Below, piece after piece: positions 51,501-56,923 of a stretch of DNA of 64,000 nt (position 1 is the stretch's first letter; every line of letters begins with the position of its first letter). The stretch is from Pseudomonadota bacterium (GTDB taxonomy: Bacteria > Pseudomonadota > Gammaproteobacteria > Acidiferrobacterales > Acidiferrobacteraceae). The notes below the pieces were generated by a model. It had not been told where the DNA came from and did not search any database. It saw only the letters and a program-made list of their open reading frames with translations. The position numbers and the translations under genes were made by a program. The stretch spans positions 1 through 64,000 of the forward strand of contig JAKARI010000014.1 of assembly GCA_021819245.1 (NCBI GenBank), in the 5' to 3' direction.

Positions 51501-52421
51501 GAGACATCGTTTCGCATGCAGGCCTTGCGCGACGAGCCGCAGAGCGCCGCCGAGTCCTATGCCCTGCTCGCCGATCCCGCCGATCCCGGGCTTCACGCGC
51601 GCGTGCCCTTCGATGTCGCGGCCCCGCTTGCGCCGCACCTTGCGCTCACCAAGCCCCGTGTCGCCATCCTGCGCGAGCAGGGCGTCAACGGCCAGCGCGA
51701 GATGGCGGCAGGCTTCATGGCGGCCGGTTTCGAGGCCGTGGATGTGACCATGAGCGACCTTCTGGCCGGGCGCGAGGGGCTGGCGGGCTTTGCGGGCCTC
51801 GCGGCGTGCGGGGGCTTTTCGTTTGGCGATGTCCTCGGGGCCGGCGGCGGCTGGGCCAAATCGATCCTGTTTCATGACGAACTGCGCGCGCAGTTTGCGG
51901 CGTTTTTCGCACGCCCCGAGACGTTCGCGCTGGGGGTCTGCAACGGCTGCCAGATGATGGCCCACCTGCGGTCCTTGATCCCGGGGGCGCAGGCCTGGCC
52001 GCTTTTCGAGCGTAACCGCTCGGAGCAGTTCGAGGCGCGTACCGTATTGGTGGAGATCCCGGACAATCCCTCGGTGCTCTTGGCCGGCATGGCCGGCGCG
52101 CGCCTGCCGGTGCCGGTCGCTCACGGCGAGGGGCGGGTGATCGTGACGCCCGATGCGCGCGCGCAGCTGGAGCATGGCCGGCTCGTGGCGGCGCGCTATG
52201 TCGATCACTACGGGCGCGCAACCGAGGTCTATCCGCGCAATCCCAATGGCTCGGTCGGCGGCATCACGGGGCTTACCACGCCCGATGGCCGCGTAACCGC
52301 GCTCATGCCGCATCCAGAGCGTGTCGTGCGCACGGCCGCCAATTCCTGGCACCCGCCGGACTGGGGCGAGTACGGCCCGTGGTTTGAGATATTCCGCAAT
52401 GCCCGGCGGTTCGTGGGCTAA
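48528..52421 (+). CDS. purL: Phosphoribosylformylglycinamidine synthase
   Basis: The 1297-residue large form of FGAM synthase, the ATP- and glutamine-dependent fourth step of purine synthesis. An N-terminal PurS-like domain and linker are followed by two AIR-synthase-like halves ([43 protein letters not shown], and [11 protein letters not shown] in the second half). A class I glutaminase domain has nucleophile Cys1138 in [10 protein letters not shown] and a C-terminal MPHPERV. The start ATG at 48528 lies 79 nt after the lipoprotein gene. The stop overlaps the convergent lplA by 4 nt. Confidence 0.97.
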
Positions 52422-53440
52422 AGATTGGGCGCCAGCAGCGCCGCGATGAAGTCTTCGCGGGCGATGCCGAGCACGCCGGTATCGGGCAGGCCTCGTGAGA
52501 GCCCCTCGCGGTCGAAGCGCTGCCCGATGAGTGTCGAGACATCGGGGTCTAGGTGCCGGCCCCAGGGCGCGTGCACGCGGGCGGCCGCGATACGTAAGTC
52601 GCGGACGGCAAGCGATACCATGACGCGCCCCATGGGCGCACTCATCGCGCGCTGACAGAGATAAAGCCCCTCATGCACCTTAAAGAGCGCCCGCGGGCGC
52701 GTCTCGTCGCTCTGCACGATGTCGGCACGGCAGAGTTCATGGGCCACCTCGCGGGCCGCGGCCATGAGGCAGGAGGGCACCGGATGGGGGCTCAGGCCGC
52801 CTATAAGCGGCGCGAAGGCCGCGGCGAGTGCCGCCTTGACGGCCGCTGCCGGCGGCCGGGACTTGGTCTCGGCATGAATCCCCGTAAGCCCCTCTTCGAG
52901 GGCGGCCTTGAGTTCCGGGCGCAGGCCCTCGTCCGGGAGGCGCACGATGCGATGCATAAGATCCGTGTCGAAATCGATGAGGATGCTGCCCACGAAACAG
53001 AAATGGCCGTTGATGTCCCCCGCCCCCTGGCCCGCGATCTTGCGCCCGTCTGTGGTGACGATGTCGTTCAGGGGACCGCGGCGCGTCTCCACCCCAAACT
53101 TGCGGTAGACCGCGATGGGGGCCTCCGAGAGGTGGCGATAGGCATCATCGACCCGGCTTGGCACGATGGGGTGAGGCCGTTTCACGACCAGGGTATAGAA
53201 GATCTGGCCGGGCCCGAGAAGGACCATGCCCCCGCCGGTCTCGCGGCGCATGACCGCAAGCGCGTGATCCCGGCAATAGTCCAGATCAACGGTGGTGGCG
53301 GCATCGTCGAATGCCCCGAGGCTCACAAACGGCCGCGCGGGCTCGATGACCACCAGCCCTTCCACCCCGAGACGCGCCAGGGCGTGGAAGTAGGCGATGG
53401 GCAATATGCCGCTGTTATCGGCGGGTTCAAAGAGATGCAC
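52418..53440 (-). CDS. lplA: Lipoate-protein ligase A-like protein
   Basis: A 340-residue LplA-type ligase that would activate lipoate with ATP and attach it to a carrier lysine. RRETGGGMV (65-73) corresponds to the lipoyl-AMP binding motif RRxSGGG, and K134 in [11 protein letters not shown] to the conserved lysine of GxKI(A/S)G. The rest of the motif region diverges from housekeeping LplA. I begin at GTG 53440 because no ATG lies between it and the divergent regulator gene; the ribosome site is weak. A GcvH-like protein with a candidate lipoyl lysine is encoded 0.8 kb away and is the likely substrate. Confidence 0.85.
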
Positions 53441-53494
53441 GGGATTTCCCGGGGCGCATGGTGCAAAATGCCATTCTAACAGCAGGGGGCGGGT

Positions 53495-54190
53495 ATGGAT
53501 CAGGATCTTGATAGGGTTCGCAAGGCGCCGCTTTTTTCCGGGCTGTTCCCGGAGGAGCTTGAACGCCTGCTCGCCCATGCCAGGCGGCGGTCGCTCAAGG
53601 CCTACGAGACGCTCTTTTCCGAGGGCGACAAGGCCGCGGCCTTTTATTTCATCGTGGAAGGCTCGGTGCGGCTCTACCGACTGTCGCCGCAGGGTGACGA
53701 GAAAGTCATCGAGATCCTCATGGCGGGCCAGACCTTTGGCGAGGCCGTGGTGTTCCTCGGTGGCCATTATCCGGTGTACGCGGCCGCGCTTGCCGACACG
53801 GTGCTCATCGAGATACCGACCAACGACTTCGTGCGCGTCCTCAAGGAAAACTCCGGGATGGCGCTGCGCATGCTGGCGGCCCTCAGCATGCGCCTGCATC
53901 AGCTCATAAACGATGTCCAGGCCCTGACGCTCGAGACGGCCGGTCAGCGCGTGGCGGGCTACCTGCTCGCGCAATGCCCGGAGGGGGCTGCGGCCGCCGA
54001 CATTCATATCCAGGTTCACAAGAACATCGTGGCCTCGCGCCTTGGGGTCAAGCCCGAGACCTTTTCGCGCGTACTCGCGACCTTGCGTGAACAGGGTCTC
54101 ATCACGGTCGCGGGCAACGACATTCACATTGCCGATCGGGCACGGCTTGCGCGCTGGCGCGACGAGGCCTACGCTGGTGGCCGGTCTTGA
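53495..54190 (+). CDS. CRP/FNR-family regulator, Dnr-like
   Basis: A 231-residue transcription factor with an N-terminal cyclic-nucleotide-type beta barrel, a long dimer helix (about 112-140) and a C-terminal winged helix. The recognition helix PETFSRVLATLREQG has Glu188, Ser191 and Arg192 in the FNR pattern E-x-x-S-R that reads TTGAT half-sites. The N-terminal cysteines that hold the Fe-S cluster of FNR are absent and only Cys161 is present. This and overall similarity place it near Dnr, the nitric-oxide-responsive type. It lies divergent from lplA with a 54-nt gap. Two TTGATnnnnGTCAA sites lie downstream. Confidence 0.9.
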   Translation: MDQDLDRVRKAPLFSGLFPEELERLLAHARRRSLKAYETLFSEGDKAAAFYFIVEGSVRLYRLSPQGDEKVIEILMAGQTFGEAVVFLGGHYPVYAAALADTVLIEIPTNDFVRVLKENSGMALRMLAALSMRLHQLINDVQALTLETAGQRVAGYLLAQCPEGAAAADIHIQVHKNIVASRLGVKPETFSRVLATLREQGLITVAGNDIHIADRARLARWRDEAYAGGRS

Positions 54191-54229
54191 TTGCTGTCAA
54201 GGCCGCGGCCGCCGCCGGATCCTTACACT
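54187..54229 (+). promoter_or_regulatory. FNR/Dnr-type activated promoter before the lipoyl-carrier gene
   Basis: TTGAT-TGCT-GTCAA (54187-54200) overlaps the regulator stop codon. Exactly 23 nt later lies TACACT (54224-54229), preceded by GATCCT. A start near 54235 puts the box centre at about -41.5, the class II activator position. Promoter 55777-55819 has the same design. Confidence 0.75.
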
Positions 54230-54250
54230 TGAGCCGAGGGGTCGGGGATT

Positions 54251-54700
54251 ATGACGGAATACCGCGGGTGTGAGCTGCCAGATGATCTGTTCTATGACCT
54301 CGACTACGTCTGGGCGCGTCCGGATGGCGACGGGCTCGTCGTTCTGGGCATAACCGACGCGGCGCAGACCATGGCCGGGCGCGTTCAGAAGATCCGCATC
54401 AAGAAGGTCGGCACGCATCTCAACAAGGGGCGCCATGTCGCGACCCTGGAGAGCGGCAAATGGGCGGGCGGCGTGCCCTGTCCGTTCGAGGGGGTCGTCG
54501 AGGCCGTCAATACCGCGGTCATCGACACCCCGCACCTTGTGAATATCGCGCCTTATACCGATGCCTGGCTTGCCAAGGTGCGACCGGTGACGCCTGCCGA
54601 TGCCTTCGCGGATCTCGTGACCGGGCCTCAGGCGATGACGGCCCTGCGCGCGTGGCTGGATCGCTACGACGTCCAGTGCATGCGCTGCGCCGAGCCCTGA
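54251..54700 (+). CDS. GcvH-like lipoyl-carrier protein
   Basis: A 149-residue protein of the glycine cleavage H-protein superfamily. ATLESGKWAGGVPCPFEGVVEAVN holds the lipoyl attachment site at Lys70, and VLGITDAAQTMAGRVQKIRI is the first half of the barrel. It is about 20 residues longer than GcvH and ends in CMRC. No gcvT or gcvP is nearby. In sulfur-oxidising bacteria such H-like proteins (LbpA) serve the heterodisulfide-reductase-like sulfur pathway and have dedicated lipoate ligases. The nearby lplA supports a dedicated carrier, but LbpA identity is inference. It is preceded by a predicted FNR/Dnr-type promoter and followed 61 nt later by a hemerythrin-like gene. Confidence 0.82.
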   Translation: MTEYRGCELPDDLFYDLDYVWARPDGDGLVVLGITDAAQTMAGRVQKIRIKKVGTHLNKGRHVATLESGKWAGGVPCPFEGVVEAVNTAVIDTPHLVNIAPYTDAWLAKVRPVTPADAFADLVTGPQAMTALRAWLDRYDVQCMRCAEP

Positions 54701-54761
54701 GGGCAGGTCCCGGCCCACGCCGGGAGGTGTCGCCCTGCGGCAAGGCCAGACGGAGAGGATC

Positions 54762-55289
54762 GTGCAGATAGGCGAGAAGGGTACACAAGTCGCCCCGGGC
54801 TTCGATGACCCCCTGGGGCTTTTGGCGGCCTGCCATGAGCGTATCGCGGGCCATTGCGCCGCGCTGACGCGTCTGGCCGCCCATGTGCGTGCGCATGGCG
54901 GGGATCGCGAGGCCAGGGAGGCGGCATCGCGCATATACCACTACTTCGCGCAGGCCGGGCGCCTCCATCACCAGGATGAGGAACAGGATCTGGTGCCGCT
55001 TGTCGCGCGGCATGACGATACGGTCTTGTCGGCAAACGCCGCGCGCCTCATGGCCGAACACCGCGTTCTGGAACGGGCCTATGCGCCGCTCGAGGCGTTG
55101 TTGGGGGCGTTGCCCGCGGGCCCGTGCGAGCTGCCGATCGAGCCCTATGTCGGGCTTATGCGTGCGCACATGGCCATCGAGAATGCGTGGCTTTTCCCGC
55201 GCGCCCGCGAGCTGCTTAAGCCGCAGGAGATCGCGGCCCTGGGGCGCGCCATGGCCGCGCGCCGGGGCGTCAAGGTTCCAGGGCTTTGA
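54762..55289 (+). CDS. Hemerythrin-like (HHE) domain protein 1
   Basis: A 175-residue helical protein with the ligand pattern of hemerythrin HHE domains. It has His25, His70 with Glu73/Glu74, His100 with Glu104, and His136 with Glu140. Such proteins bind a di-iron centre and sense or scavenge oxygen, nitric oxide or iron. It starts at GTG 54762 after GGAGAGG and is probably cotranscribed with the lipoyl-carrier gene from the FNR/Dnr-type promoter. Its 3' end overlaps the second hemerythrin-like gene, on the other strand, by 20 bp. Confidence 0.85.
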   Translation: MQIGEKGTQVAPGFDDPLGLLAACHERIAGHCAALTRLAAHVRAHGGDREAREAASRIYHYFAQAGRLHHQDEEQDLVPLVARHDDTVLSANAARLMAEHRVLERAYAPLEALLGALPAGPCELPIEPYVGLMRAHMAIENAWLFPRARELLKPQEIAALGRAMAARRGVKVPGL

Positions 55290-55701
55290 GCGCCGCGCGC
55301 GCATCCGGAAGGAGCACGGCCACCGCCGGATAGAACTCCTGCTCTTCCTTGTCATCGTGATGGTGGAGGATCTGGCCTACGGTGCCGATCAGGGCCGTGC
55401 CCTCGTCGCCATCGCCCTCACTCAAGGCCTCGGCGATCTCATCGAAGAAACCGCGCAGGTCGCGATGCCCCTTGCGCAGGATGGATGTGAGCGGGTTATC
55501 CTGTCCATGTTGGGCCTCATAGGCCGGGAATAGCCAGGTCTCCTCGGCCCTCATATGGCGTTCTATGGCGTCGCGAAAGCCCTGGAAGTCCGCGCGCGCC
55601 TGCGCAAAGTCGCCGTTGTCGACCGCGCATCGCGTGCCCTCGAAGGCCCGATCGAGCGCGCGGTGGTGGCGGGTAAAGCCCTCGATGAGTGAGGTGTCCA
55701 T
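55270..55701 (-). CDS. Hemerythrin-like (HHE) domain protein 2
   Basis: A 143-residue four-helix HHE protein. Candidate iron ligands are His12 or His13, His49 and Glu53 in IERHMRAEETWLFP, His79, and the cluster HHHDDKEEQEFYP at 113-125. It differs clearly from protein 1, so the pair is not a recent duplication. The ATG at 55701 follows GGAGG. It points toward protein 1 and shares the upstream region containing the TTGAT-GGCC-GTCAA box with the thioredoxin-fold gene. Confidence 0.87.
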   Translation of the reverse strand: MDTSLIEGFTRHHRALDRAFEGTRCAVDNGDFAQARADFQGFRDAIERHMRAEETWLFPAYEAQHGQDNPLTSILRKGHRDLRGFFDEIAEALSEGDGDEGTALIGTVGQILHHHDDKEEQEFYPAVAVLLPDARAALKALEP

Positions 55702-55776
55702 GCCAAACCTCCCGGGCGGTGCCCGCTATCCAGGGGATCATAGTCCCTATTACCTTATGGTCGCATCCCCTGATCA

Positions 55777-55819
55777 TTGATGGCCGTCAAGGAGCCGCGG
55801 GGGGCGCGATCCCTACAGT
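55777..55819 (+). promoter_or_regulatory. FNR/Dnr-type activated promoter before the thioredoxin-fold gene
   Basis: TTGAT-GGCC-GTCAA (55777-55790), 23 nt, then TACAGT (55814-55819), again preceded by GATCC. The start near 55825 puts the box at about -41.5. On the other strand a TATGAT (55742-55737) could let the same box act on hemerythrin gene 2, but at about -52 that geometry is poor. Confidence 0.75.
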
Positions 55820-55849: not shown

Positions 55850-56098
55850 ATGGAGGTCCGGCTGCTGGTATCCAAGTGGTGTTCGGTGTGTCCTCAGGCC
55901 GAACGGGTGTGGGAGGAGGTCGCGCGCGGACAGCCGATCGACTATAAGGCGCTCGACATCGCCGAGCCCGCGGGCCGTGCGCTGGTCGCGGCGCTGCGGG
56001 TGCGCACCGTGCCGGCCGTGGTCATCGACGGCAAGCTCGTGGCGGTGGGTGTCGTGTCCATGGGCGACGCCCTAAAGCTCGTCTCGCAGGCGGCGTGA
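55850..56098 (+). CDS. Small thioredoxin/glutaredoxin-fold protein
   Basis: An 82-residue redox protein with the N-terminal active site C11-S-V-C14 after the first strand (VRLLVSKWCSVCPQAERVW). A VRTVPAVVIDGK segment has the cis-proline of the fold. It may reduce a disulfide or take up a metal; the partner is unknown. A strong AAGGAGGTG ribosome site precedes the ATG. It is first of three overlapping genes with DUF488 and a CopD-like protein under the predicted FNR/Dnr-type promoter. Confidence 0.85.
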   Translation: MEVRLLVSKWCSVCPQAERVWEEVARGQPIDYKALDIAEPAGRALVAALRVRTVPAVVIDGKLVAVGVVSMGDALKLVSQAA

Positions 56099-56469
56099 GC
56101 GCCACGCGGGCCCCGGTCATCGCGGTGCGGCGCGCCTATGAGGCCCGAAGGCCCGGCGAGGGGCCGCGCTATCTCGTCGACGCCCTCTGGCCGCGGGGGC
56201 TTACCAAGGCCGCCTTGGGCCTTGCGGGATGGGCGCGCGATGCCGCCCCAAGCAAGGCGCTGCGGCAATGGTTCGGGCACGACCCGGCGCGATTTGCGCC
56301 ATTCCGCCGCCGTTATCTCGCCGAACTGCGCGGCCACCCCGAGGCCACCGAGGCCCTGGTGGCGGCGTTGCGCCAAGGTCCCATCACGCTTGTGTACGGC
56401 GCGCGCGACGAGACCCACAACAACGCGGTGGTCCTGCGCGAGTACCTGAGGGAGCGCATGCATGCATGA
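56095..56469 (+). CDS. DUF488 family protein
   Basis: A 124-residue protein matching DUF488 (AYEARRPGEGPRYLVDALWPRGLTKAAL, WARDAAPSKALRQWFGHDPARFAPFRRRYLAEL, ITLVYGARDETHNNAVVLREYL). Members are small soluble proteins of unknown function, often near redox or heavy-metal genes. It starts at a GTG overlapping the stop of the thioredoxin-fold gene (GTGA) and overlaps the next gene by 8 nt. Confidence 0.85.
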   Translation: MSATRAPVIAVRRAYEARRPGEGPRYLVDALWPRGLTKAALGLAGWARDAAPSKALRQWFGHDPARFAPFRRRYLAELRGHPEATEALVAALRQGPITLVYGARDETHNNAVVLREYLRERMHA

Positions 56470-56923
56470 GGCCGTTTTCCTGGTGCTGATCGCGCTCCAT
56501 CTGCTCGCGGCCACCACCTGGGTGGGCGGGGTGTTGTTCTTCATGTTCGCGGTCGTGCCGGCTGCGCGTGCGAGGCCGGCCTCCGGCATCCCCGAGGTCT
56601 TGGGGCGGGCGTTTCGGCCGGTGGCCTATGGGGCGCTCGGCACGCTGATCATAACCGGCCCCTTATTGCTCTTCTGGGCGGGTATCGGCCCGCACATGCT
56701 GGTGCGCCCGCGCTTCTGGACGAGCGCCTTCGGGGCGACCCTGGCCCTCAAGGCGGCGTGCGTGCTGCTGGTGCTGATCCTGACGGTCTGGCATGACGCG
56801 GTGCTCGGGCCCCGCGCCGCGCGCGGCGGGCCGGTGCGCGCGGCACGCTTGGCCGCGCGCGCCATAGGGCTCCTGTCCATCGCGATCCTGCTCGCCGGAC
56901 TCTTGTTAGCCCAGGGCCTCTAG
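56462..56923 (+). CDS. CopD-like four-helix membrane protein
   Basis: A 153-residue integral membrane protein with about four helices (near 5-30, 55-78, 84-108 and 130-150). The first contains LHLLAATTWVGGVLFF, the L-H-x-L-A-x-x-x-W-x-G-G pattern of CopD-superfamily proteins, some of which bind heme or copper. Function is unknown. Its end overlaps the convergent ABC exporter gene by 18 bp. Confidence 0.78.
   Translation: MHEAVFLVLIALHLLAATTWVGGVLFFMFAVVPAARARPASGIPEVLGRAFRPVAYGALGTLIITGPLLLFWAGIGPHMLVRPRFWTSAFGATLALKAACVLLVLILTVWHDAVLGPRAARGGPVRAARLAARAIGLLSIAILLAGLLLAQGL

Follow-up and report, generated by a model that had tools for sequence, protein, structure and literature searches.

Conserved boxes probably place a lipoyl-carrier operon and a thioredoxin operon under an adjacent Dnr-type regulator in an acidophilic sulfur oxidiser

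DNR regulons comprise a cysteine-free CRP/FNR regulator close to its targets and an operator with the published motif CTTGATnnnnATCAAG; the targets are NO reductase and Hcp and, in A. ferrooxidans, also a globin–reductase operon (PMC1274295, PMC12403760). For this globin (cgb) operon, DNR control was predicted as NO defence, and a COG4309-type gene of unassigned function was linked to the nor genes (PMC1274295). Activation of P. aeruginosa Dnr proceeds via NO bound to heme (PMC12403760). The sites recognized by DNR, FNR and FixK are near-identical (PMC2908626), and hemerythrins occur in oxygen regulons too, as with the Anr-controlled mhr (PMC12403760).

Two kinds of dedicated lipoyl carrier are the closest described counterparts of the carrier reported here. 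LbpA of the sHdr system is a GcvH-like protein with a lipoyl lysine (PMC6067878, PMC10332631), marked by one cysteine toward the N-terminus and one toward the C-terminus (PMC6067878). In Staphylococcus and Streptococcus, the GcvH-L/LplA2/SirTM/macrodomain operon provides an extra GcvH-like carrier with its own lipoate ligase and an association with stress (PMC4518038).

The window analysed here, a stretch of 64,000 nucleotides, lies on contig C33 of a 2.25-Mb, 54-contig Acidiferrobacteraceae genome, and its features are given in Table 1. It resembles the DNR regulons in having a cysteine-free CRP/FNR regulator and a DNR-like operator close to the putative targets. The window-type operator, however, accepts TTGAC half-sites, the place of denitrification enzymes as best-conserved targets is taken by a lipoyl carrier and a thioredoxin operon, and qNOR, missing from the window's genome by protein search, was rejected as a target there. 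With LbpA the window carrier shares its GcvH-like character, the lipoyl lysine, a cysteine toward each end, a lipoate ligase gene close by and sHdr organisms as hosts, but it lies outside the sHdr cluster, has an added C-terminal cysteine that creates a CxxC motif, and stands under a DNR-type operator together with hemerythrins and a thioredoxin. The extra carrier, its own ligase and the presumed stress association recall the GcvH-L operon, whereas the window block is without a sirtuin or macrodomain gene and its regulator and organisms differ.

Table 1 Features of the regulator locus, in window coordinates
Feature	Position	Strand	Remarks
Lipoate-protein ligase-like (LplA-B catalytic domain)	52418..53401	-	PF21948, E 4.6e-30; divergent from regulator; start codon uncertain
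Dnr-type CRP/FNR regulator, 231 aa	53495..54190	+	PF00027 and PF13545; E188-x-x-S191-R192
Box 1, TTGATTGCTGTCAA	54187..54200	+	CTTGAT-N4-GTCAAG with flanks; putative class-II position; exact TTGATnnnnGTCAA match
-10-like hexamer TACACT	54224..54229	+	23 nt past box 1; mostly TAGACT in relatives
GcvH/LbpA-like lipoyl carrier, 149 aa	54251..54700	+	PF01597, E 3.1e-31; 16-sequence alignment
Hemerythrin-domain protein 1 (GTG start)	54762..55289	+	PF01814
Hemerythrin-domain protein 2	55270..55701	-	PF01814; convergent with hemerythrin 1, divergent from thioredoxin operon
Box 2, TTGATGGCCGTCAA	55777..55790	+	exact TTGATnnnnGTCAA match
-10-like hexamer TACAGT	55814..55819	+	23 nt past box 2; mostly TAGAGT in relatives
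Thioredoxin-like protein, 82 aa, CSVC active-site motif	55850..56098	+	PF13192, E 9.7e-11
DUF488 protein (DUF488-N3i, 'inactive' subclade)	56095..56469	+	PF22752, E 5.2e-36
CopD-like membrane protein	56462..56923	+	PF05425, E 2.1e-5, under curated cut-off

The genes named as targets in the preliminary description of this DNA, a GcvH-like carrier with hemerythrin and a thioredoxin/DUF488/CopD-like operon, have the Pfam matches of Table 1, that of the CopD-like protein being below its cut-off. Sixteen relatives in the family keep the gene order ligase, regulator, GcvH-like carrier, hemerythrin, hemerythrin, thioredoxin-like protein, DUF488, CopD-like protein; the second genus has this order too, except that its three genomes gave no match to DUF488. 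Of 17 family genomes, 16 have the ligase-like gene next to that of the regulator. On the minus strand, the ligase frame runs on into the antisense of the regulator gene as one open frame of 569 aa (window positions 52418–54127); its stretch opposite the regulator is probably spurious, which leaves the start of the ligase uncertain.

Both boxes lie precisely where they had been reported and are the window's sole exact matches to TTGATnnnnGTCAA. The gap of 23 nt to the hexamers TACACT and TACAGT is likewise exact, and the implied starts (~54235/54236 and ~55825/55826) would centre the box on -41.5 or -42.5, in agreement with the proposed class II placement. The GATCC ahead of both hexamers, described earlier as a further shared feature, is a coincidence, since it is absent from the conserved positions of the relatives. 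A gap of 22–23 nt also occurs near the genome's own FNR and is thus general class-II geometry with no bearing on the identity of the regulator; as a signature of a Dnr-type regulator the spacing was dropped.

We take both boxes to be real and beyond chance. That they are chance matches, or are kept for coding or RNA reasons, is a reading that conservation already contradicts and to which we give almost no credence. It could draw on the mild enrichment of one-mismatch TTGATnnnnGTCAA matches in the window (4 observed, 1.15 expected), a count weak by itself, so the case rests on conservation, and on the TGA stop of the regulator (54188–54190), which falls within box 1. Yet relatives whose regulator gene stops ahead of box 1 keep it too, and across the genome seven exact matches to TTGATnnnnGTCAA were obtained as against zero for the reversed control. 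Among the family genomes having the gene block, window included, box 1 is kept in 17 of 17 and box 2 in 16 of 17 (its left half has decayed in G011), orthologous sites being non-independent observations. A -10-like hexamer follows at 23 nt in most genomes (box 1, 13/17; box 2, 14/16) and at 22 nt in another three. When the box-1 regions are aligned, no variation is seen in CTTGA, GTCAA, the G that follows it and three -10 positions, nor in seven further columns that belong to the upstream gene's end; between the genes, the invariant columns are essentially the box and the -10. Boxes also recur ahead of the carrier in other families, as described below. The preliminary description had proposed that its reading would fail if close relatives kept the genes but not the boxes; this was not seen: boxes, regulator and targets are conserved together. 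A third genus (G017) has the carrier but no adjacent regulator orthologue, and the 9 kb examined contains no box.

The regulator is, as had been noted, a CRP/FNR protein with the E-x-x-S-R helix and without the FNR cysteines; all of 17 orthologues keep E188, S191 and R192, and none of the 17 has the FNR cysteine motif. Matches to it were found in all 17 other family genomes; 16 of these are orthologues (59–88% identity), and in 16/16 relatives having the block the regulator adjoins it. Among solved structures it comes closest to P. aeruginosa DNR (3dkw, E 2.6e-40, 141.6 bits), with scores of ~61 bits against solved CRP and ~53 bits against solved FNR, and from these scores against solved structures we class it as of the DNR kind and not FNR. 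H14, H15 and H187 of 3dkw (DNR alignment ends) are not conserved in the window regulator, so that residue identity lends no support to heme binding.

Only one other regulator in the genome exceeds the HTH cut-off. Encoded on contig C37 (C37:21346–22125), this second CRP/FNR protein has a C-x2-C-x5-C motif and scores 183.6 bits against solved FNR; judged by its sequence it is a true FNR, with boxes separable from those of the block. Immediately upstream of its gene (C37:1–37000; L008, L089) is a self-complementary box, TTGATACTAATCAA. The neighbourhood is conserved and anaerobic in character, with boxes of its own, and includes a U32-peptidase-like gene; FNR-region boxes adjoin fnr and hemN-like, ubiD/ubiT-like, nrdD-like and nnrS-like genes, named by sequence recognition and not by profile scans.

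This FNR could itself read the block boxes, in which case the operons would be a response to oxygen limitation and the adjacent regulator incidental or secondary. The two sets of sites share core half-sites and promoter geometry, including an equal gap from box to -10, and given the near-identity of DNR, FNR and FixK sites FNR could act at the block boxes too; in Thioalkalivibrio, moreover, the boxes have no C..G flanks and no adjacent Dnr. Against this, C..G flanks are present in 29/33 Dnr-block boxes and 0/23 boxes near FNR (nine regions, seven genomes), and the central four positions are richer in G and C (3.4 versus 2.0), so that the block boxes do not qualify as FNR-type operators; because orthologous sites share descent, the P value of the flank comparison exaggerates the difference. 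The block operator, CTTGAYnnnnRTCAAG, fits the published DNR motif, it drifts to TTGAC-GTCAA in the second genus, the regulator is adjacent wherever relatives have the block, and block-type boxes precede qNOR and Hcp genes. We regard control by FNR as unlikely.

Beyond the window, a scan for CTTGAYnnnnRTCAAG gave 1–7 sites per genome (reversed control, 0–1), with gene calls outside the window made by a simple codon-usage caller. In relatives the extended box precedes qNOR, DUF2249 and DsrC-like genes and, in the second genus, Hcp; the DUF2249 gene is taken here to be of the COG4309 type. A protein search that made no use of the motif gave eight complete qNOR genes; each is preceded at a short distance by TTGACnnnnGTCAA, in six cases with C..G flanks. 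Additional sites in the window's genome lie at C43:121331 (DUF2249) and C43:148965 (DsrC-like). The seven exact sites were rejected as a single regulon: three belong to the FNR neighbourhood of C37, and for C19:6627 no target is evident.

Several side features accompany these sites. The DUF2249 gene is divergent from an acetolactate-synthase-like gene (L162:3376–5028 on C43; relatives L141, L148 and L149), with an extended box between them. In G009, a second qNOR-type box (C47:15545; L158) stands ahead of broken qNOR pieces, while an intact qNOR lies elsewhere in that genome. Near the exact box C19:6627 are two ORFs with the same first 45 residues, ~7 kb apart (L009:194–520 and L009:7358–7684), which are probably a repeated element.

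The earlier suggestion of a small redox or NO regulon beside its regulator is thus, at the level of sequence, well supported by the conserved boxes, the DNR-type regulator and the NO-related co-targets. Operator type and target set together favour NO over oxygen. Alternatively, the regulator may sense a sulfur or thiol signal, the regulon serving sulfur transfer through the lipoyl carrier, the DsrC-like protein and the thioredoxin. Consistent with this are the unconserved heme-region histidines, the boxes ahead of DsrC-like genes, and the presence of sHdr in 17/18 carrier genomes against 22/369 overall. Nevertheless, qNOR, Hcp, DUF2249, globin–reductase and NsrR neighbours all indicate NO, as does the predicted DNR control of cgb in A. 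ferrooxidans as NO defence (PMC1274295), and we consider a sulfur signal improbable.

The adjacent Dnr-type regulator probably uses both boxes as its operators, each in a class-II (-41.5) promoter, and the genes under its control would give this acidophilic sulfur oxidiser a module for NO defence. We infer that the regulator would sense NO, presumably via heme as P. aeruginosa DNR does, bind CTTGAYnnnnRTCAAG and activate transcription of two operons, one encoding the lipoyl carrier and hemerythrin and the other the thioredoxin, DUF488 and CopD-like proteins. Hemerythrin 2, divergent from the second operon, would probably be activated with it and may share box 2; in genus g2, the distance from box 2 to a TACACT/TAGACT in its direction is 23 nt. 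In relatives the regulator would reach the quinol NO reductase, DUF2249, DsrC-like and Hcp genes as well. Speculatively, the likeliest role of the carrier and the CxxC thioredoxin would be as a thiol relay, one stripping nitrosyl groups or one shielding or backing up the lipoate-dependent sHdr system.

Four GcvH-type genes are present in the genome: GcvH on C6, LbpA1 and LbpA2 in the sHdr cluster of C28, and the window gene. The latter has both LbpA marks, with K70 as lipoyl lysine and C7 and C143 as terminal cysteines; across the 16 aligned carriers Lys70, Cys7, Cys77 and Cys143-x-x-Cys146 are invariant. It was rejected as GcvH, having ESGKWAG against ESVKAAS and scoring below the NCBIfam GcvH cut-offs, with the C6 GcvH forming its own clade, and as an LbpA of the sHdr cluster, being neither in nor next to an hdr-like cluster while the C28 cluster has its own LbpA1 and LbpA2. 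In the tree the window type is set apart from GcvH and LbpA2, and LbpA1 is a long branch within the wider group. On these sequence grounds the GcvH-like target probably represents a separate LbpA-like lineage of lipoyl carriers.

Outside the family, Acidithiobacillus, Thioalkalivibrio, Burkholderiales and other bacteria encode relatives of the carrier, mostly at 54–66% identity. A thioredoxin-like gene stands beside 53 of 55 such carriers; the 55 also have as neighbours a small COX1-like membrane protein (38), Dnr (13), globin (11) with a reductase, and an NsrR-like protein (2), together with hemerythrins and DUF2249. In Acidithiobacillus, a block-type operator precedes a globin and a reductase. 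Related carrier loci totalling 576 kb contain 46 boxes, against 1 in the control. In a sample of 369 genomes drawn evenly from the class, 16 of the 18 carriers are outside the family, and a box directly precedes the carrier operon in 12 of the 16 (once ahead of a leading globin), with control matches at 0/16.

The carrier lineage is almost wholly confined to sHdr sulfur oxidisers, as far as these genomes indicate. Within the class sample 18 genomes have the carrier lineage, 22 have sHdrB and 17 have both (Fisher P = 6e-24, a value that ignores shared ancestry), the sole carrier genome without sHdrB being 75% complete. A strong sHdrB match was also found in 29 of the 34 genomes reached via related loci. 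Possible reasons for this tie are a dependence on sHdr-type lipoylation, a protective or backup role under NO, or a lipoyl–thioredoxin nitrosothiol relay; dihydrolipoyl groups are able to denitrosylate thiols. We tentatively propose, as a possibility short of even likelihood, that a third LbpA-type lineage with a CxxC thioredoxin couples NO defence to sHdr oxidation: induced by NO through DNR-type (elsewhere perhaps NsrR-type) control, it would sustain sulfur oxidation or clear NO or nitrosothiols by lipoyl thiols or persulfides.

Known targets of NO regulons are reductases, globins and di-iron proteins; the open-licence papers searched described no lipoyl carrier as an NO-regulon target, and no dedicated one as the top-conserved target in sulfur oxidisers. 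If true, lipoate would gain a role in nitrosative stress, and nitrogen and sulfur metabolism would be joined at one promoter. The proposal is directly testable, because culturable Acidithiobacillus species, among them A. ferrivorans and A. ferriphilus, retain the genes and a box.

Some of the outside loci have membrane components of their own. The small membrane protein, of 131–132 aa and in many genomes directly ahead of the carrier (L214:4594–4992; homologues near 38/55), has a weak similarity to COX1 (E 4e-6, below cut-off), and the Thioalkalivibrio thioredoxin is fused to an additional membrane part.
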